This document shows, in pieces, positions 43,461 to 52,289 of a stretch of 64,000 nucleotides of DNA (position 1 is the first letter of the stretch; each line of letters begins with the position of its first letter). The notes beneath the pieces were generated by a model. That model was given only the letters and a program-made list of their open reading frames with translations. It ran no database searches and was not told the origin of the DNA. The position numbers were made by a program, and so were the translations under genes. Source of the stretch: Phyllobacterium sp. YR531. Its GTDB lineage: Bacteria > Pseudomonadota > Alphaproteobacteria > Rhizobiales > Rhizobiaceae. The stretch spans positions 620,001 through 684,000 of the forward strand of contig NZ_AKIZ01000016.1 of the NCBI RefSeq assembly GCF_000282595.1, read 5' to 3'.

Positions 43461-44378
43461 TTATCTGCCTGTCTGAACATCAAGTTTTTGCAGTGTGTTT
43501 CTGATAACAGATGCCACCAGCTGTACCCCGGGGTCCTTGTCCCGGCGAACATGCCAGGCAATGTGCAGAGTAAACCCGTCGACCGGCACTGGTGGTTCGA
43601 AAACAGCATAGTCTTTTACAGAACTCTGCGGGATACACAGACTCGGAACCATGGCAATCAAATCCGACCCCATCAAAAGCGGGGGAACGATTACAAAACT
43701 AGGGACAACCACACCCACTCGTCTCTGCTTGCCCAGAACCGCTAAAGCCTCATCCAGCGGCCCTTTCGTATCACCACGTCCCGAGACCAGTATGTGAGGA
43801 TAGGCAAGCCATTGCTCGAGATTAAAATCACGTGCTGCCGGATGTTCCTTGCGCATCACCACCAGATAATTCTGGAAGAGCAAGTCATGCCGTTGAAACG
43901 ATACGTCAGACTTTGGAAAGACAGACACAGCCAGATCAACGGAACCCTTGGCGAGTTCATCAAGCGCTTCATCCGCACCATGCCAAGGCTGTATGACCAG
44001 ATTGACGCCAGGTGCCTTCATCGCAAGCTGTTGATGTAGTTCAGCGGCAATGACCATTGTCGGATAGTCCCCCATGATAATGCGGACTGTCTGCCTCAGT
44101 GCTGCAATATCAATGTCAGGAGGATCGAGGACCGAGACCACGTCGGCCAGCAGGTTTTTCAGCGGCTCACGAAGACTTTCCGCTTTGGCCGTCAGTCGCA
44201 TTCCACCTTTGCCGCGCTCCAGCAGTGGGTCGTTCAACAGGTGCCGACAGCGCTCCAGTGCGCTTGATGTGGCGGGTTGCGAAAGGCCGAGCCGGTCTGC
44301 CGCACGGGATACGTGCGCTTCATCCAGCAAAGCATCCAGTACAACCAGGAGATTAAGATCGACAGAACGTAAATTCAT
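43461..44378 (-). CDS. LysR family transcriptional regulator
   Basis: A 305-residue protein. VDLNLLVVLDALLDEAHVSR and ADRLGLSQPATSSALERCRH form the N-terminal winged helix. The effector domain spans residues ~90-300 (MGDYPTMVIAAELHQQLAMK, VDLAVSVFPKSDVSFQRHDL). The NodD/LinR-like sub-type is suggested by the opening. It lies 43 bases after the ferredoxin-reductase gene on the same strand, so it may be cotranscribed with or regulate the Rieske operon, or control the IolI-like gene downstream. Confidence 0.9.
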   Translation of the reverse strand: MNLRSVDLNLLVVLDALLDEAHVSRAADRLGLSQPATSSALERCRHLLNDPLLERGKGGMRLTAKAESLREPLKNLLADVVSVLDPPDIDIAALRQTVRIIMGDYPTMVIAAELHQQLAMKAPGVNLVIQPWHGADEALDELAKGSVDLAVSVFPKSDVSFQRHDLLFQNYLVVMRKEHPAARDFNLEQWLAYPHILVSGRGDTKGPLDEALAVLGKQRRVGVVVPSFVIVPPLLMGSDLIAMVPSLCIPQSSVKDYAVFEPPVPVDGFTLHIAWHVRRDKDPGVQLVASVIRNTLQKLDVQTGR

Positions 44379-44421: not shown

Positions 44422-45513
44422 TCAGGCTTCCACCTCGACATTGCTCAGAGGTTTGGAGCAACACGCCAGAATATAGCCTTCATCGATTTCCTCATCGAGG
44501 ATACCGCCATTGTGATTCATGTCCACACTGCCTGAGATTTTCATGATCTTGCAGGTACCGCACAGGCCGGATTCACAGGCAGCAGCAATTCGAATCCCCG
44601 CTCCTCTTGCAGCTTTCAGGATCGTATCGCCTGCCACACAAGGCACGTCCTTGCCGGACATGGAGAATGTCACAGTCGCTGCAGTCTCAGCCACTTCCGT
44701 CGAAATCTCATCCATAACCGGCAGGACAGGTTCGGCAGCAGAACCAAAACTTTCCTGATGGTAATGCGCCATATCGAACCCGGATTCCTCCAGCATCGTG
44801 CGTACATCACGCATGAAGCCGTCGGGACCGCAGCAAAAGATTGTCCGGTCTTTGAAGTCCGGCGACAGCAACGAAAGCTTCGGCGCTTCCAGTCTGCCCC
44901 TGATACCCGTCCACAGCTGGCCCATTTCGTGTTCCTTTATCAGGAAGGACAGTTTGAGATTGGGCATGCAGCTGGTCAGATATTCCAGCTCCTTGCGGAA
45001 AATGATGTCGCTTGGACGGCGCGCACAACTGACGAAACTGATATCGCTTTGCGGGGCGCAATCCTGCATCCAGCGGGTCATCGACATCATGGGCGTAATG
45101 CCGGAACCTGCCGAAATGAACAGATATTTGTCACCAGGATGTTTGGATATCGAGAAATCGCCCAGCGGGCCAAAAGCTTTCAATCTTGCGCCGGGCGTGA
45201 GGTGGTCCAGCATCCAGCGTGTACCGATGCTGCCATCCTGTGCCTTGACAGTGATTGCAATTGTAAATGGCCGGGAGGGACTGGAGGAAAGCGTATAGGT
45301 ACGCAGGACAGCATCTGGCTGGGTGCCGAGTTCGAAAGTCATGAACTGGCCCGGCTCATACCGGAACCAGTTCTGATTGTCGGACCGGAATGTGAAAGTC
45401 TTCACATTGGGCGCTTCCTCAATGACTGATAGGCACTCCAGCAGATGCAGCCGGTCGTTCCAGGGCTGCATCTGATCGAGATGCGGATATTTCTGAGGAA
45501 TGCCCATATTCAC
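44422..45513 (-). CDS. NAD(P)H:flavin/[2Fe-2S] reductase of the Rieske oxygenase (GbcB-like)
   Basis: A 363-residue reductase. RTYTLSSSPSRPFTIAITVK is the FAD-binding motif, KYLFISAGSGITPMMSMTRW and the IFCCGPDGFMRDVRTMLEES stretch are the NAD(P)-binding blocks. The C-terminal CESGLCGTCKIMKISGS with a further Cys is the plant-type [2Fe-2S] domain. The GTG at 45513 shares a base with the stop of the oxygenase gene; an ATG two codons later is the alternative start. It supplies electrons to the partner oxygenase, as GbcB does for glycine betaine demethylation. Confidence 0.9.
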   Translation of the reverse strand: MNMGIPQKYPHLDQMQPWNDRLHLLECLSVIEEAPNVKTFTFRSDNQNWFRYEPGQFMTFELGTQPDAVLRTYTLSSSPSRPFTIAITVKAQDGSIGTRWMLDHLTPGARLKAFGPLGDFSISKHPGDKYLFISAGSGITPMMSMTRWMQDCAPQSDISFVSCARRPSDIIFRKELEYLTSCMPNLKLSFLIKEHEMGQLWTGIRGRLEAPKLSLLSPDFKDRTIFCCGPDGFMRDVRTMLEESGFDMAHYHQESFGSAAEPVLPVMDEISTEVAETAATVTFSMSGKDVPCVAGDTILKAARGAGIRIAAACESGLCGTCKIMKISGSVDMNHNGGILDEEIDEGYILACCSKPLSNVEVEA

Positions 45514-46754
45514 TACGCTACCTTGCTAAGTCGCTTGCCGCCATCGAGCCGTGTTTCCATCGTATTGGAGTACCATTCAAGGAACTGCAGGACACCGCCT
45601 TCATGCTCTACTGAGTATGGGCCAGGTTCATAGGCAGGCGAGCGTATGCCAAACGCATTTTCCTCGACAATCTGGCGGTCCTGATCGTTGGTTTCCAGCC
45701 AGACATGCGTCAGTTCATCAATAGTATAGTCAACGCCTTCGACGGCATCCTTGTGCACCAGCCACTTGGTTGTGACCTGCGTTTCGGTGGCACTGAGCGG
45801 CAAAACACGGAACGAAATTGCATGATCGCCCAGAATGTGATTCCACGTTGTCGGATAGTGATAAAGCAGCAGAGAACCGATTTGGCGTGTGCTGACATCG
45901 TCGCTCAACTGGCGCGCTACAGCGCGTTTGCCCGACATCGTGTAGCTTTCAGACTCGTGCAGCAGTGGCACGCGCGTGGCACGGAACTGGCCATGCTCAT
46001 CAATCTGGAACACGCTTGGAAGACCAGCCGCCTCGCACTTGTCCCAATGCGCCACGATCTCCGGATCGTCCTTTGAACCCTGTACACCGGTTACGCTTGG
46101 TGCTTCCGGAAAGGTCTTGCAGAGTTCCGGATGATTGGCGGCGCAGTGATAGCATTCGCGGTTGTTTTCCCAGACCAGCTTCCAATTGCCCTTCTCTACA
46201 ATGGAGCTTTGAAAAGCCACCTTGGTTTCACCAAGCCGGTGCGGTGCGAGATAAGGTTCGATCAAAGCCCGGGTTGCTGCAAAATCCGGCGCAATTGGCG
46301 CAAGGCAGATGAAAATGTAGCCGCCGATGCTTTCGCAATGCACTGTCTTCAAGCTGTGCTGGCTGGCATCGAAATCATCGCCCATCTGGCGGGCGAACAA
46401 CAACCGGCCATCCAGCTCATAAGTCCACTGGTGGTAAGGGCAAACCAGCTTCGCCGAGCTGCCCCGTTCGGAAGCGCAAACACGCGAGCCGCGATGACGG
46501 CATGAATTGTGGAACGCGCGTATTTTCTTTTCGCGATCCCGGACGATAACCACCGGATAGTCGCCAATCTGTACGGTAAAATAATTACCCGGCCGCGCTA
46601 CTTCGCAATCATGACCGATAAACAGCCAGTCGCGGTAAAAAATATTCTCCATATCCAGCCGGAAATAATCCGGATCGGAATAAAAGGCTTGCTCTAGGCC
46701 GTAGCCCGGTTTCCGGTGTTTCAGGTTCCGGAGAAGTTCGCTATGTGCGTCCAT
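45513..46754 (-). CDS. Rieske non-haem iron oxygenase, betaine/stachydrine demethylase type (GbcA-like)
   Basis: 413 residues from the ATG at 46754 (GAGGA upstream); the frame stays open to 46856 at the riboswitch. SCRHRGSRVCASERG...LVCPYHQWTYELDG is the Rieske C-x-H...C-x2-H motif, and VWENNRECYHCAANHPELCK carries the His residues for the catalytic iron, in the GbcA/Stc2 sub-type. These enzymes oxidatively remove N-methyl groups from glycine betaine or proline betaine. It is directly downstream of a cobalamin riboswitch on the same strand and upstream of its reductase. Substrate is inferred, not shown. Confidence 0.9.
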   Translation of the reverse strand: MDAHSELLRNLKHRKPGYGLEQAFYSDPDYFRLDMENIFYRDWLFIGHDCEVARPGNYFTVQIGDYPVVIVRDREKKIRAFHNSCRHRGSRVCASERGSSAKLVCPYHQWTYELDGRLLFARQMGDDFDASQHSLKTVHCESIGGYIFICLAPIAPDFAATRALIEPYLAPHRLGETKVAFQSSIVEKGNWKLVWENNRECYHCAANHPELCKTFPEAPSVTGVQGSKDDPEIVAHWDKCEAAGLPSVFQIDEHGQFRATRVPLLHESESYTMSGKRAVARQLSDDVSTRQIGSLLLYHYPTTWNHILGDHAISFRVLPLSATETQVTTKWLVHKDAVEGVDYTIDELTHVWLETNDQDRQIVEENAFGIRSPAYEPGPYSVEHEGGVLQFLEWYSNTMETRLDGGKRLSKVA

Positions 46755-46869
46755 GTCGTGTCCTCGCCATCTCATTTGCGAAAGAACTGACTGGTGGTGA
46801 CGGAGAAGACCGCCTGTATGGCTACCCATACAAAACAATGCTCCTTGATCGCCCACCGCGATCAGTCGG

Positions 46870-47055
46870 TGTTATCGCTTGCGGCTGGTTTCCGGGCTCT
46901 GGAGTTCCCTTCCGGGACTTCACGGCGCCTTCCCGGAATACTATCCCAGTGGCTATTTTGCCGCGTTTCACTCCACTACCGTTGCGGGGGCAGCGCCGGG
47001 ATTATAACCGGCTTCCCAATTATCCGCCTTCCCTAGAAAGCGGCACCTCAAGTGA
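46870..47055 (-). promoter_or_regulatory. Cobalamin (adenosylcobalamin/B12) riboswitch
   Basis: On the minus strand the order of conserved elements is GAGGTGCC (about 47048), GGGAAGCCGGT then AATCCCGGCGCTGCCCCCGC and AACGGTAG (about 47018-46978), GCCACTGGG (about 46953-46945), CCGGGAAGGCGCCGTG (about 46938-46920), and a B12 box AGAGCCCGGAAACCAGCC (46900-46883). This set is diagnostic for the cobalamin riboswitch. The downstream leader (about 125 bases) has GATCGC...GCGATC and TGTATGG/CCATACA hairpins that could be the expression platform. It controls the Rieske oxygenase/reductase operon. High cobalamin would be expected to lower expression. Confidence 0.9.
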
Positions 47056-47214
47056 CCTGATAAAAGCACTCGGGTGATAAAAAGAATAGGTGCGGAAACG
47101 ACATCGCATTTACACAAGACGACACGGCTAAAATGGCGCGGGCTCTAGTGCGCCAGAATGGCACAGCTTGTCCACAGCCTTGATCGGATACGCCAATTGC
47201 GACCTGAAATTTGG

Positions 47215-47248
47215 CTGTTCCACCCCGCTTGAGGCGAAGGTGGAACAG
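47215..47248 (-). terminator. Terminator hairpin after the fuconate dehydratase gene
   Basis: CTGTTCCACC (47215-47224) pairs perfectly with GGTGGAACAG (47239-47248). On the minus strand it is followed by CCAAATTT. It ends the fuconate operon before the riboswitch region. Confidence 0.7.
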
Positions 47249-47256
47249 AAATATGG

Positions 47257-48534
47257 CTACAGATCGCGATGCAGATACTGCTTGATTGATTCCGGTTTCA
47301 TTTCGATTGAAAAGCCTGGCAGCGACGGTGGCATATAGGCCGCGTTCTGAATATTGCAGGGATCGACGAAATGCTCATGCAAATGATCGACATATTCTAT
47401 AACACGGCCCTCTTTCGTTCCCGAAACCGCAACATAGTCTATCATCGACAGGTGCTGGACGTACTCGCATAGCCCAACACCGCCAGCGTGCGGCCAGACA
47501 GGCAGATTATATTTTGCCGCGATGAGCAGCACCGCCAATACCTCGTTCAAGCCACCCATGCGGCAGCTATCGATCTGCACCACATCAATCGCGCCTTCGG
47601 CAATGAACTGCTTGAACATGATGCGATTCTGACACATCTCGCCTGTTGCGACTTTCACCGGGTGGATTGCTTCACGAATTTTGCGGTGTCCGGCGACGTC
47701 ATCAGGGCTTGTAGGCTCTTCGATGAAAAACGGTTTGACGAAAGCAAGCTTGTTCACCCAGTCGATTGCTTCCCTGACTTCCCACACCTGATTGGCATCA
47801 ATCATCAGAATGCGATCCGGGCCGATGACTTCGCGTGCAATTGTGAGGCGCCTTATGTCATCCTCAAGATCGCGTCCAACCTTCATCTTGACGTGATTGA
47901 AGCCTGCATCAATAGCTTCCTGACAGAGACGACGCAGCTTTTCATCCGAATAGCCAAGCCAGCCTGCAGAGGTCGTGTAGCAGGGATATCCCTCGTCTTT
48001 GAGTATCCCGATACGTTCTTTCTTGCCTGTCTCCGCCTTGCGCAGAATTTCGAGCGCCTCTTCACGTGTCAGCACATCGGTCAGATAACGGAAGTCGACA
48101 ATGTTGACGATCTCTTCGGGCGTCATTTCGCCAACAAGTTGCCAAACCGGCTTCTTTGCTTCCTTGGCCAGCAAATCCCATACGGCATTGACCACCGCGC
48201 CTGTCGCCAGATGCATTGCCCCCTTGTCGGGGCCGATCCAGCGCAACTGGCTATCGCCGGTAATGAAATGCCAGAACCTGCCCGGGTTTTCTTTCACCCA
48301 ATCCAGTTCAAGGCCCACAACAAGATGCTTCATGGCTTCAATGGCCAGACAGCAAATTTCATTTCCGCGCCCGATGGTAAAGGTCAGTCCGTGACCGGAA
48401 AGTCCGGCATCAGTATCCAGTACCACATAGGCGGCAGAGTAATCAGGATCAGGATTCATTGCATCCGAACCATCCAGACTTTGTGAGGTCGGGAAACGGA
48501 TATCGAATACGCGAAGGTCAGTAATGCGGGTCAT
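47257..48534 (-). CDS. L-Fuconate dehydratase (enolase superfamily)
   Basis: A 425-residue protein of normal family length. FDIRFPTSQSLDGSDAMNPD is the N-terminal signature of the fuconate dehydratase branch, FNHVKMKVGRDLEDDIRRLT holds the KxK acid/base pair, and RILMIDANQVW, FFIEEPTSPDDVAGHRKI and VKVATGEMCQNRIMFKQF supply the metal ligands. VWPHAGGVGLCEYVQHLSMI has the catalytic His. It converts L-fuconate to 2-keto-3-deoxy-L-fuconate. It is nine bases after the SDR gene and last in the operon. Confidence 0.93.
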   Translation of the reverse strand: MTRITDLRVFDIRFPTSQSLDGSDAMNPDPDYSAAYVVLDTDAGLSGHGLTFTIGRGNEICCLAIEAMKHLVVGLELDWVKENPGRFWHFITGDSQLRWIGPDKGAMHLATGAVVNAVWDLLAKEAKKPVWQLVGEMTPEEIVNIVDFRYLTDVLTREEALEILRKAETGKKERIGILKDEGYPCYTTSAGWLGYSDEKLRRLCQEAIDAGFNHVKMKVGRDLEDDIRRLTIAREVIGPDRILMIDANQVWEVREAIDWVNKLAFVKPFFIEEPTSPDDVAGHRKIREAIHPVKVATGEMCQNRIMFKQFIAEGAIDVVQIDSCRMGGLNEVLAVLLIAAKYNLPVWPHAGGVGLCEYVQHLSMIDYVAVSGTKEGRVIEYVDHLHEHFVDPCNIQNAAYMPPSLPGFSIEMKPESIKQYLHRDL

Positions 48535-48543
48535 CGATCTTTC

Positions 48544-49278
48544 CTAAACTGTCCAGCCGCCGTCAATATTGTAGGCCTGACCTGTGGTGTAGGTTGCGCC
48601 AGCAAGATAAACGGCAAGATCAGCAATTTCTTCCGGCAAACCCAAACGTCCCATCGGCTGACGCGCGATAAAGGTCGCGCGGGTCGCTTCATAATCGCCG
48701 CCAGACCGCATACGCTGTTCAAGCGACGGACTTTCCACAGTACCCGGGCAAATTGCATTGCAACGAATACCTTGAGTAATGTAGTCGGCCGCCACTGATT
48801 TGGTGATCCCCAACACGGCTGCCTTGGTCACACCATAGGCAAAGCGGTTCGGTACGCCTTTTACGCTGCTGGCGACTGAAGACATGTTGACGATTGCGCC
48901 TTCCTTGCGCTCGATCATCCCCGGCAGGACAGCGCGGATCGTGCGAATCATGGCACGCACATTGAGATCGAGTGCAAATTCAAGATCAGCGTCCGGCATG
49001 TCGAGGATCGAGCCGCCATGAACAAAACCGGCGCAATTGAACAGCACATCTATGGCACCGATTTCGCCAATCACCTGCGTGACTTCATCGGCCTTCAGTA
49101 CGTCAAGCTTGCGCGGCTTTATGTTCGCTTCCTTTGGCAAAGCATCAAGCAATTGCTGATTAATGTCGGTTGCATGGACTATCGCACCTTCGCGCGCGAA
49201 AGCCAGCACCGAAGCCCGGCCAATGCCTTGGCCGGCTGCCGTAATGAGAACGCGTTTGCCTTCAAGCTTGCCTGTCAT
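48544..49278 (-). CDS. SDR-family dehydrogenase, 2-keto-3-deoxy-L-fuconate dehydrogenase-like
   Basis: A 244-residue short-chain dehydrogenase. VLITAAGQGIGRASVLAFAR is the TGxxxGIG-type cofactor motif, IVNMSSVASSVKGVPNRFAY supplies the Ser, and AYGVTKAAVLGITKSVAADY the YxxxK catalytic pair. It is cotranscribed between the enolase-superfamily gene upstream and L-fuconate dehydratase downstream, the place of 2-keto-3-deoxy-L-fuconate dehydrogenase in known L-fucose pathways. L-fucose dehydrogenase is the alternative. Confidence 0.85.
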   Translation of the reverse strand: MTGKLEGKRVLITAAGQGIGRASVLAFAREGAIVHATDINQQLLDALPKEANIKPRKLDVLKADEVTQVIGEIGAIDVLFNCAGFVHGGSILDMPDADLEFALDLNVRAMIRTIRAVLPGMIERKEGAIVNMSSVASSVKGVPNRFAYGVTKAAVLGITKSVAADYITQGIRCNAICPGTVESPSLEQRMRSGGDYEATRATFIARQPMGRLGLPEEIADLAVYLAGATYTTGQAYNIDGGWTV

Positions 49279-49367
49279 TTCAAATCTCCATTCGGCATTT
49301 CATAATGCCAACCATGCATTCCGCCCCGATTTGGGCAATGATATCTCTTTTTAAGCCGTGAAAGCCA

Positions 49368-50480
49368 TCAGGCGCGGATTTCAGTAGTGAATTCATCCAC
49401 ACTTCGCGCTTTGACCGCATCCCAGTCCCAATCGATCCCGATTCCGGGTTCTGAAGGTGCCAAGGCATAACCATTCTCAATCCGCATCTGCGTCTTTGTC
49501 AGGTCATCCAGCTGCGGAATATATTCGACATATTTTCCGTTCTGGACCGCGCATGTGAGGCTGACATGCAGTTCCATCAGAAAATGCGGGCATACGGGGA
49601 TGTTAAATGCTTCTGCCGCATGCGCCACTTTCAGCCAAGGCGTAATACCGCCAATGCGACCAACATCGACCTGTACGATAGAGCACGCTCCCTTTTGCAT
49701 ATACTCGCGGAAATGCCTGATCGAATAAAGCGATTCGCCAACGGCTACCGGCGTTTGCGTGGAGGCAGACAGGCGCACATGCCCGTCAATATCATCCGCA
49801 GGCAGCGGCTCTTCGAGCCATGCGAGATCAATATCCCGCAGCACGTGAGAACGGCGAATGGCCTCGTCGAGGGAAAAGCCCTGATTGGCGTCGGTCATGA
49901 TTTCAAATCCGGAGCCGACCGCATCGCGCACTGCCGAGAGTCGATCTAGGTCTTCTGATCCGTGTGGGCGGCCAATCTTGACTTTCGCACCTTTGAAACC
50001 TTTGGCTTTTGCTTGCAGCGCATCGTCAACCAAGGCTTGTTTTTCAATATGCAGCCAGCCGCCTTCAGTTGTATAAAGCGGGCAGCGATCCTTCGCTCCC
50101 CCTGCAAGCTTCCATAATGGCAAATTCTGTTTCTTTGCGCGCAAATCCCACAAGGCAATATCAATCGCCGCCAATGCGATTGCGGTTATCGCACCTATCG
50201 TTGTTGCATGTGTCGCAAATTCGAGATCGTGCCAGATCGCTTCAATCTGATCCGCATCCTTGCCCAGCAAGCGCGGCACCAGATGATCGGAAAGCAGGCG
50301 CATCACCGATGAACCACCCGTACCGATTGTGTAGCTGTACCCTGTACCAACAGCACCGTCGCTATCGGTAATGGTAACGATGGGGGTTTCCTGACTGACA
50401 AAACTCTGGATAGCATCCGTGCGCAGCACTTTTGGTGGCAGATCTACCATTCGCAATTCAACGCGTTGAATTTTTGCCAA
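49368..50480 (-). CDS. Mandelate racemase/muconate lactonizing enzyme family protein
   Basis: 370 residues from the TTG at 50480, which follows GGGAGGA by five bases; an ATG at 50549 lies within the operator region and lacks a ribosome site. IQRVELRMVDLPPKVLRTDA is the N-terminal cap, KGAKVKIGRPHGSEDLDRLS carries the KxK, and IMTDANQGFSLDEAIRR, DLAWLEEPLPADDIDGHVRL and TPVAVGESLYSIRHFREYMQ hold the metal ligands. It is the first gene of the minus-strand fuconate-type operon. Substrate is another sugar acid or lactone; the exact reaction is not assigned. Confidence 0.85.
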   Translation of the reverse strand: MAKIQRVELRMVDLPPKVLRTDAIQSFVSQETPIVTITDSDGAVGTGYSYTIGTGGSSVMRLLSDHLVPRLLGKDADQIEAIWHDLEFATHATTIGAITAIALAAIDIALWDLRAKKQNLPLWKLAGGAKDRCPLYTTEGGWLHIEKQALVDDALQAKAKGFKGAKVKIGRPHGSEDLDRLSAVRDAVGSGFEIMTDANQGFSLDEAIRRSHVLRDIDLAWLEEPLPADDIDGHVRLSASTQTPVAVGESLYSIRHFREYMQKGACSIVQVDVGRIGGITPWLKVAHAAEAFNIPVCPHFLMELHVSLTCAVQNGKYVEYIPQLDDLTKTQMRIENGYALAPSEPGIGIDWDWDAVKARSVDEFTTEIRA

Positions 50481-50522
50481 ATTATCCTCCCGTCGGGCTT
50501 GGTATTTTGGCCCGTTTATATA

Positions 50523-50559
50523 TTGTATACCCATATATGGGAACTTCATTCATATACAA
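50523..50559. promoter_or_regulatory. Nested palindromes at the divergent promoter (candidate IclR operator)
   Basis: CCCATATATGGG (50530-50541) is a perfect 12-base palindrome. It lies inside an outer dyad TTGTATAC (50523-50530) and CATATACAA (50551-50559). It lies between the operon starting at 50480 and the IclR gene at 50649, where an autoregulating IclR protein would bind. Seen: the symmetry. Inferred: the regulator. Confidence 0.5.
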
Positions 50560-50648
50560 ACATTTGCTCGGCTCATCGTCAAGCGATGAAAGCTCTTCCA
50601 TCTGCTAATGATCCTCGTATAAGCCTTAAGGTCAGGGAGTAATTGCAT

Positions 50649-51428
50649 ATGACAGAAGACGAAGACCGCTACCGCGCTCCGGCGCTAGACAAGGGCCTCG
50701 ACATACTGGAACTGCTGGCAGGCATTGACGGCGGTGTAACGCAGGCGGAAATTGCAAAGCGGCTCGGTCGCAGCCCGAACGAGTTTTATCGCATGCTCGA
50801 CCGCCTGGTCCGCCGTGGCTATGTCACGCGTCTCGAAGGTGACCGCTATTCGCTTACCCTCAAGCTTTTCGGATTGTCACAGCTGCACGCGCCGGTCCGC
50901 CGTCTCGCCGCCTATGCCACGCCCCTGATGCGCGACCTCGCGGTTCAGTCAAAACAGGCCAACCACTTATGTGTGTTTGATCGCGGGGCTGTGGTTGTCG
51001 TTGCCCAGCAGGAAGCTCCCGAATATTGGGGCATCTCAATCCGCGTTGGCTCCCATATGAGCTTGCTCAATACTGGCTCTGGTCACGTACTGATGGCCTT
51101 CCGCTCGGTGGAAGAGCGCAGCCTGATGATTGCAGAATATGAACGCCATGTGGATGATAATTCGCAGCCGGATGATTATCGCGACCGCCTCAGCACGATT
51201 CGTGAGCGTGGCTATGAGATCATGCCCAGTGCTCAGACCGGTGGTGTTTTTAACGTCTCGGCTCCGGTGCTTGGTCCCGATGGGCGCGCCATTGCAGCGA
51301 TCACCTGCCCCTATATTCAGGTCCTCAATGTTCCGGATGCTCCGGGCGTCGATCAGGTATGTCAGATGATCGTTGCCACAGCGAAAAAACTGTCAGAATT
51401 ATCGGGCGCCGACGTAGGTCAAGTCTGA
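50649..51428 (+). CDS. IclR family transcriptional regulator
   Basis: 259 residues from the ATG at 50649, with AGGGAG upstream; the frame also has a TTG six bases earlier. The N-terminal winged helix is ALDKGLDILELLAGIDGGVT and AEIAKRLGRSPNEFYRMLDR. The effector-binding domain covers residues ~80-250 (ATPLMRDLAVQSKQANHLCV, GSHMSLLNTGSGHVLMAFRS). It is divergent from the fuconate operon and followed by the lactonase gene, so it is the likely local regulator. Confidence 0.9.
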   Translation: MTEDEDRYRAPALDKGLDILELLAGIDGGVTQAEIAKRLGRSPNEFYRMLDRLVRRGYVTRLEGDRYSLTLKLFGLSQLHAPVRRLAAYATPLMRDLAVQSKQANHLCVFDRGAVVVVAQQEAPEYWGISIRVGSHMSLLNTGSGHVLMAFRSVEERSLMIAEYERHVDDNSQPDDYRDRLSTIRERGYEIMPSAQTGGVFNVSAPVLGPDGRAIAAITCPYIQVLNVPDAPGVDQVCQMIVATAKKLSELSGADVGQV

Positions 51429-51440
51429 TCGGAGAAGCAA

Positions 51441-52289
51441 ATGCCACCTAGTGAATTGATCGATACACACCTGCATCTGATCGATCAGTCTGCTCTGTCC
51501 TATCCATGGCTATCCAGCGTGGAAGCATTGAACCGCGATTTCCTTTACGAGGAATATGCGCAGCAGGCACATCGCGTCGGCATCTCACGCTCGCTACATA
51601 TGGAAGTCGATGTAGCAGTTGCAGATATCGAAAATGAAACGGCGACCGTTGCCGCATTATCAACCCGCGAGGACAGCCTGATCGCTGGTGCAATCTCATC
51701 ATGCCGTCCGGAAGATCAGGAATTTGCAACTTTTCTTGAGCGGCAACTGGCCAATCCCTTGGTCAAGGGATTCCGCCGTGTACTCCATACAATGCCCGAC
51801 GAGCTTTCCGAACAACCGCTATTTCGGGAAAACCTGAAAAGGCTTGCCGGAACCGGGTTGACCTTCGACCTGTGCGTCCTGCCAAGGCAGGTCAGCCAGA
51901 CCATCGCCCTTATCGACATCGCGCCCGATGTTCAGTTCATTCTCGATCATTGCGGCGTCCCTGATATCAAGGGAAGCGGATTTGAAACTTGGCAACGCGG
52001 TATTACTGAAATTGCCAAACGTCCAAATGTCACTGCCAAGATTTCGGGTGTGATTGCCTATACAGACACGGCGATATGGCGCATCGAAACTCTTGAGCCC
52101 TATGTGCATCACATTATCGCCAGTTTTGGCTTTGACCGCTTGGTCTGGGGAAGTGATTGGCCCGTATGTACCCTTGGCGGCGACCTTGCCACGTGGGTGG
52201 CGGCGACACACGCGCTTGTCTCGGGTTGCAGCATTGATGAGAAGACACGGCTATTTTCCGGAAATGCCAAGCGCATATGGAATCTATAG
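51441..52289 (+). CDS. Amidohydrolase, L-fuconolactonase-like
   Basis: A 282-residue TIM-barrel hydrolase of the amidohydrolase_2 family. ELIDTHLHLIDQSALSYPWL has the HxH metal pair, QFILDHCGVPDIKGSGFETW a further His, and DRLVWGSDWPVCTLGGDLAT the closing SDWP block. It would open L-fucono-lactone to L-fuconate, the substrate of the dehydratase encoded divergently. It starts 12 bases after the IclR gene and is cotranscribed with it. Confidence 0.87.
   Translation: MPPSELIDTHLHLIDQSALSYPWLSSVEALNRDFLYEEYAQQAHRVGISRSLHMEVDVAVADIENETATVAALSTREDSLIAGAISSCRPEDQEFATFLERQLANPLVKGFRRVLHTMPDELSEQPLFRENLKRLAGTGLTFDLCVLPRQVSQTIALIDIAPDVQFILDHCGVPDIKGSGFETWQRGITEIAKRPNVTAKISGVIAYTDTAIWRIETLEPYVHHIIASFGFDRLVWGSDWPVCTLGGDLATWVAATHALVSGCSIDEKTRLFSGNAKRIWNL

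Follow-up and report, generated by a model that had tools for sequence, protein, structure and literature searches.

A cobalamin riboswitch in front of a betaine demethylase-type Rieske oxygenase may regulate it as a B12-independent stand-in for a corrinoid demethylase

The window analysed here, a stretch of 64,000 nucleotides from Phyllobacterium sp. YR531 (contig NZ_AKIZ01000016.1, positions 620,001 to 684,000), carries on its minus strand a cobalamin riboswitch followed by a Rieske oxygenase gene and a reductase gene (Table 1). An earlier note on this DNA had read the full run of cobalamin riboswitch elements directly before a GbcA/Stc2-like Rieske oxygenase and its reductase, and both the riboswitch and its placement were confirmed by an Rfam scan, in which RF00174 (Cobalamin) was matched over positions 1-189 of 189 with 110.9 bits (E 6e-27), against a gathering score of 31.5. 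This was the sole above-threshold Rfam match within the window. The B12 box was likewise present, but its sequence AGCCCGGAAACCAGCC spans 46898-46883 and not, as had been noted, 46900-46883. Orthologues elsewhere were preceded by the same riboswitch at a similar distance upstream. Additional B12-box-like motifs were seen no more than about 5 kb away from the oxygenase at three of the relatives' loci (L069, near 1352 and 10947 on the minus strand; L078, near 1262 and 11270 on the minus strand; L026, near 8949).

Table 1. Features of the riboswitch-oxygenase locus, in window coordinates
Feature	Position	Strand	Basis or role
Cobalamin riboswitch aptamer (RF00174)	46866..47065	-	Rfam, 110.9 bits, and alignment with relatives' loci
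7-bp hairpin with loop GGTGG (platform hairpin, P13-like)	46846..46864	-	conserved pairing in relatives
CACCACC preceding the anti-Shine-Dalgarno stretch	46799-46793	-	alternative partner of the GGTGG loop
Anti-Shine-Dalgarno stretch (TCTTT in the window, mostly TCCTT in relatives)	46781..46785	-	alignment
Shine-Dalgarno GAGGA, 6 nt before the ATG	46761..46765	-	sequence and conservation in relatives
Rieske oxygenase, group Vb betaine N-demethylase type (GbcA/Stc2-like), 413 aa	45513..46754	-	profile and structure matches, tree
GbcB-like reductase with FAD, NAD and 2Fe-2S domains, second gene of the operon	44422..45513	-	profile matches

The window was aligned with those 56 of 80 named loci that carry the exact B12 box, and leaders of relatives were examined downstream of the aptamer. 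A 7-bp hairpin with a GGNGG loop was found in 92 of 93 leaders (some near-identical, duplicates included). Despite variation in the arms, 549 of the 552 cells that its inner 6 pairs make up in these 92 leaders were paired, whereas shuffling the 3′ arms 2000 times gave 516 paired cells on average and 528 at most. Closer to the gene, the anti-Shine-Dalgarno stretch (TCYTT) can pair with the Shine-Dalgarno sequence; 97.8% of the cells of this helix were paired in 27 rows, with no changes on both sides. The start of the regulated gene is therefore preceded by a covarying hairpin and a conserved anti-Shine-Dalgarno helix, as in an expression platform. An alternative helix, in which the hairpin loop and its flank pair with CACCACC and CAG, was 93.8% conserved; no covariation for this long-range helix was seen in the alignment. 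The minimum free energy fold of the window's leader contains the alternative helix, with an unremarkable z-score of –1.66. No terminator and no separate promoter were found between the riboswitch and the gene, in a scan that recognises one promoter type and expects 0.4-0.5 hits by chance in shuffles, so that this negative carries little weight. These features suggest that the leader acts by translational control and, by analogy, that B12 would repress the operon. In one relative's locus (L043:5590-6012) some 100 additional nt lie between the two strands of the anti-Shine-Dalgarno helix, which would separate them.

We take the ATG at 46754 as the likely start codon of the oxygenase: each of its bases is at least 90% conserved in the alignment with the 56 loci, it is invariant in 27 rows, GAGGA stands 6 nt upstream, and relatives have in-frame stops ahead of it. 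The earlier remark that the oxygenase frame stays open up to the riboswitch is literally true of the window, where the first start codon of that upstream open frame is a GTG at 46856, inside the conserved hairpin loop. However, of the other loci that bear the riboswitch with an exact box (89, duplicates included), 63 have an in-frame stop between the B12 box and the oxygenase, so the open frame in the window is due to chance and carries no meaning. An upstream start of the oxygenase was rejected on these stops and the conserved ATG.

The oxygenase contains the motifs ENNRECYHC, NHP and TNDQD and the marks by which group Vb is recognised, that is, an Asn in place of the aromatic Tyr203 of CntA, a Cys-X-X-Cys beside the iron site and His-His-Asp ligands (PMC7948474 and PMC10952381, in their available text); the Asn marks the N-demethylating group Vb (PMC7948474, likewise). 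Both subunits found their best NCBIfam match in the two-component glycine betaine monooxygenase GbcAB, whose architecture they share. Yet the oxygenase scored 517.3 bits against the GbcA equivalog NF058607, under its cut-off of 670, and the reductase 388 bits against the GbcB equivalog NF058606, under its cut-off of 500. Matches above the GbcA cut-off occurred in 10 of 199 genomes of a phylum draw, every one outside the window's class, and in a quick tree, with long outgroup branches, the window's family stood in a clade apart from these ten proteins and sister to that of Stc2 and 3n0q. These two are also its closest solved relatives (569 bits for 3n0q, 530 bits for the stachydrine demethylase Stc2, 3vca). 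Where Stc2 has Ala223, which is located at the ligand (PMC10952381, available text), the window's family has Thr, as does 3n0q. Because of the Asn, the Cys-X-X-Cys, the iron ligands and the placement in the tree, the oxygenase is, as far as family membership tells, a betaine-type demethylase, and a betaine-type substrate is predicted for it. A distant Rieske paralogue with 35% identity (L103:5934-7241, contig C40 of the same genome) adjoins carnitine-catabolism-like genes, on a contig without any of the genome's cobalamin riboswitches.

The reductase gene follows immediately after the oxygenase in 116 of 137 relatives' loci (duplicates included). In the other 21 (L025, L029-L033, L035, L047, L051, L058, L061, L062, L070, L071, L073, L090, L119, L124, L155 and the riboswitch-bearing L132 and L133) the electron donor may be encoded elsewhere. 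A larger conserved operon was rejected, the commonest neighbour cluster besides the reductase being present in 49 of 104 loci; these clusters came from a crude ORF caller that misses genes at high G+C, and were not annotated by search. Some neighbour clusters varied with riboswitch status (for example 16/64 vs 1/40), probably because that status follows clades. In Phyllobacterium myrsinacearum the alignment with the window extends over 44422-49297, covering the reductase, the oxygenase and two genes upstream of the riboswitch, while two Brucella loci align over the oxygenase-reductase region only. A LysR-type regulator is encoded right behind the reductase in the same orientation (43461-44378, minus strand), and upstream of the operon a sugar-acid catabolism-like cluster (47257-52289) contains two enolase-superfamily proteins, an SDR, an IclR-type regulator and a fuconolactonase-like hydrolase.

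The genome of the window's strain, 99.9% complete, has 9 cobalamin riboswitches. As read from the ORFs, the genes behind them are metE, nrdIEF, bluB, genes of B12/cobalt uptake and synthesis, a homocysteine methyltransferase and the oxygenase operon. With metE and nrdIEF among these, B12-independent isozymes are already part of its B12 regulon; the B12-dependent methionine synthase MetH is also encoded. The homocysteine S-methyltransferase-like gene with its own upstream riboswitch (L099:5942-7006, contig C35) scored 94 bits against the betaine-homocysteine methyltransferase model, under the cut-off of 338, and is distinct from the MtgE-like gene described below.

Two proteins of the genome are of the MttB type, a broad family. 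Next to one of them lie genes for a corrinoid protein whose best matches are MtgC models (214 bits, cut-off 370) and for a corrinoid activase (386 bits, cut-off 800), both scoring under the cut-off, as well as for a methyl-folate:corrinoid methyltransferase (397 bits) and a betaine-homocysteine methyltransferase (554 bits), which exceed their cut-offs of 259 and 338, respectively. This MttB matched the structures 4yyc with 972, 2qne with 419, 9yce with 418 and 7xcl with 128 bits; 4yyc is named 'putative trimethylamine methyltransferase', 9yce is a glycine betaine methyltransferase and 7xcl a trimethylamine methyltransferase, and the MttB proteins of this genome are nearer the glycine betaine than the trimethylamine enzyme. 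The second MttB-type gene (L096:13636-18479, contig C16) follows a betaine-type ABC transporter, and the gene behind it reads like a dimethylglycine dehydrogenase. According to the available text of PMC12478193, MtgBCDE demethylates glycine betaine and makes methionine in an aerobic marine bacterium. The genome thus has a cluster like the MtgBCDE of Ruegeria pomeroyi and other aerobes (PMC12478193), the B12-dependent counterpart that we propose for the oxygenase, although in protein family and chemistry it is unrelated to the window's Rieske pair.

Whether the riboswitch accompanies MttB was assessed in two sets of genomes. For the first, 151 genomes were drawn from the window's family, taken to be Rhizobiaceae in the broad sense because loci of Mesorhizobium and Rhizobium, among others, recur in it as named duplicates. 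Of these genomes, 69 matched the oxygenase at E 1e-100 or better; 58 orthologues of at least 55% identity were kept, the window's own included, and 15 of the 73 matches, at 45-48%, were dropped as a separate paralogue group. MttB was sought in the same 151 genomes, and absence of a PF06253 match at E 1e-60 counted as MttB-negative. The second set comprised 49 named genomes chosen by riboswitch status and so not random: from the 80 named loci, all 24 motif-negative and, for spread, 26 of the 56 motif-positive ones were taken, minus that of P. myrsinacearum, with 30 motif-positive loci left out. Riboswitch status came from a motif search, with Rfam run on every motif-negative genome (21 in the first set, where G091 and the window's own genome were scanned as well), so that 35 of the 38 riboswitches in MttB-positive genomes of the first set and 25 of 25 in the second stand on the motif alone. 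The motif search as the sole test was rejected, having missed real riboswitches in G054 and G058 and a weak one in L086.

In the first set the riboswitch preceded the oxygenase in 38 of 41 MttB-positive and 1 of 17 MttB-negative genomes, and in the second in 25 of 26 and 1 of 23. Merged into 104 distinct orthologues (three duplicates removed), the counts were 62/66 vs 2/38 (Fisher p 5e-21, a value that ignores kinship). With six exceptions in all, the riboswitch was thus found only where the B12-dependent counterpart is encoded. Four of these have MttB and no riboswitch (G099, L044, G087 and G095); the oxygenases of G087 and G095, at 55-59% identity, group with Stc2. The other two, G091 (61.3 bits) and L086 (57.9 bits), have a riboswitch with the same altered box and no MttB. 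Their weak scores suggest that these riboswitches may be decaying, but MttB-positive G058 is also weak (68.8 bits). Brucella, where the earlier note had proposed to compare the locus, fits the pattern, as B. grignonensis (L089) and B. haematophila (L091) lack both the riboswitch at the orthologue and MttB.

Taken with the leader and the family of the enzyme, these data indicate that the operon is probably a B12-independent, O2-dependent stand-in for the corrinoid MttB/MtgBC betaine demethylase, made when B12 is low. Both routes would then act on the same compound, as the families to which the two enzymes belong suggest. The same switch could operate with proline betaine (stachydrine) or some other betaine as the substrate and a matching MttB, and we regard this as a real, if tentative, possibility. 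The sister position of the window's family to the Stc2/3n0q clade, apart from the GbcA proteins, speaks for stachydrine, and MttB-type enzymes for several betaines exist (PMC12478193, available text). On the other hand, the Thr at the Stc2 Ala223 position, shared with 3n0q, the affinity of the genome's own MttB proteins to glycine betaine methyltransferase and the betaine-type transporter beside one of them count against this variant, though none of them is decisive.

The co-occurrence might also reflect no more than shared ancestry, a few clades having both traits or neither. The labels are indeed clustered on the tree, where 10 changes of each trait suffice. However, a Pagel-type test preferred dependent over independent change (likelihood ratio 28.4, 4 df, p 1e-5; our own script, with midpoint root and flat root prior, on a quick tree of the oxygenase and not of species). 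Among 5 independent pairs on supported branches, 3.5 went in the same and 0 in the opposite direction, with 1.5 undecided, too few for significance; in a smaller set, none of 6 pairs was contrary. Shared ancestry as the whole explanation is therefore very unlikely. In the Pagel-type fit, loss of the riboswitch once MttB is absent was by far the fastest change.

As candidates for the B12-dependent partner, MtgC and MetH were compared in 51 of the genomes. MtgC was present in 34 of 34 MttB-positive and 0 of 17 MttB-negative genomes, and MetH in 24 and 17 of them, respectively. The MtgC match of G002 (C1:996221-996910) and the MetH match of G091 (C45:2881-6498) each contain one in-frame stop, and the MetH match of G117 is partial. 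Among MetH-positive genomes, the riboswitch occurred in 23 of 24 with MttB vs 1 of 17 without, and it occurred in 8 of the 10 MetH-negative genomes, all of which are MttB-positive. The riboswitch follows MttB/MtgC, not MetH. Every riboswitch-negative genome had cobalamin riboswitches elsewhere (46 whole-genome RF00174 scans, 44 distinct genomes); together with the presence of MetH in the MttB-negative genomes, this means that what was lost was not B12 use in general.

The earlier note had suggested that a demethylase under B12 control would reroute methyl groups or one-carbon units around MetH when B12 is short. Methyl-group handling as the subject is supported by our data, and metE and a homocysteine methyltransferase do, by reading, lie behind riboswitches in the same genome. 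However, MetH was rejected as the paired enzyme because riboswitch status does not track it, and an oxidative demethylase gives, by established GbcAB chemistry, formaldehyde and no methyl donor, so that rerouting around MetH is highly improbable. That the oxygenase serves corrinoid metabolism itself, in an O2-dependent step of synthesis or salvage, is scarcely credible even though B12 synthesis and uptake are the target of most cobalamin riboswitches, given its group Vb signature, its GbcB-like reductase and the genomes with B12 riboswitches and MetH that retain the gene without a riboswitch.

A demethylase had also seemed to fall outside the categories that cobalamin riboswitches are known to control; instead, it fits a known class, that of B12-independent replacements of B12 enzymes, the B12 enzyme here being the corrinoid demethylase. 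B12-independent ribonucleotide reductases stand under cobalamin-riboswitch control by the same rule. Genomes that encode both a B12-dependent and a B12-independent isozyme are known to place the latter under a B12 riboswitch (PMC2211319, PMC3766115, in their available text); metE is such a case, its riboswitch standing ahead of the B12-independent enzyme in genomes that have the B12-dependent one too (PMC2211319). The best reading of the operon's pairing is an extension of this metE/metH rule to a catabolic step. In contrast to the metE case, the window's pair is catabolic, non-homologous and O2-dependent on one side, and its products differ, formaldehyde on one route and a corrinoid-bound methyl on the other.

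The pairing of the riboswitch with the oxygenase genes may already be in print. The B12-element surveys of 2003 may list a B12-regulated alphaproteobacterial pair ardX-frdX, which could be the window's operon. For the names ardX and frdX, no B12-related title stood among the matches listed in the full-text literature. In 2004 frdX was introduced, in a different setting, as a new ferredoxin name (PMC545781, available text), which weakens that identification. No link between a cobalamin riboswitch and a Rieske oxygenase was found in the available text of PMC5317091, PMC4465626, PMC2864759, PMC2211319, PMC3766115, PMC8123684, PMC545781 and PMC12478193, a scope that leaves most subscription journals, the 2003 B12-element surveys and supplements outside. 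In the available text of PMC12478193, the word 'riboswitch' occurs once, in the reference list only. No earlier statement that pairs the riboswitch with a corrinoid demethylase was found in the literature searched, so far as its text was available.

In the mechanism that we propose, a shortage of B12 would leave the leader free to release the Shine-Dalgarno sequence, and the Rieske pair would remove the betaine methyl oxidatively. The methyl group would be released as formaldehyde, as it is by GbcAB. When B12 is plentiful, cobalamin would bind the leader and, by analogy, shut off translation. MtgB would then transfer the methyl group to the corrinoid protein MtgC, from which tetrahydrofolate or homocysteine would receive it; this MtgB/MtgC route is known from another bacterium (PMC12478193, available text). 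We are somewhat inclined to the wider view that the B12 supply determines what becomes of the methyl groups of betaines, which MtgBC would keep in corrinoid- and folate-bound form and which, without B12, the riboswitch-controlled Rieske oxygenase would turn into formaldehyde, and that lineages losing the B12 route go on to lose the riboswitch.

If true, a vitamin would gate which of two unrelated chemistries carries out a single catabolic step, and the case would show that the missing B12-dependent counterpart of a riboswitch-controlled gene can be identified from genome content alone. The riboswitch-controlled backup would give a direct genetic read-out of the cell's methyl route. Because the MtgBC route, recently described in aerobic bacteria, makes betaine use B12-dependent, such a backup would let rhizobia and their kin use plant betaines when B12 or cobalt is scarce.
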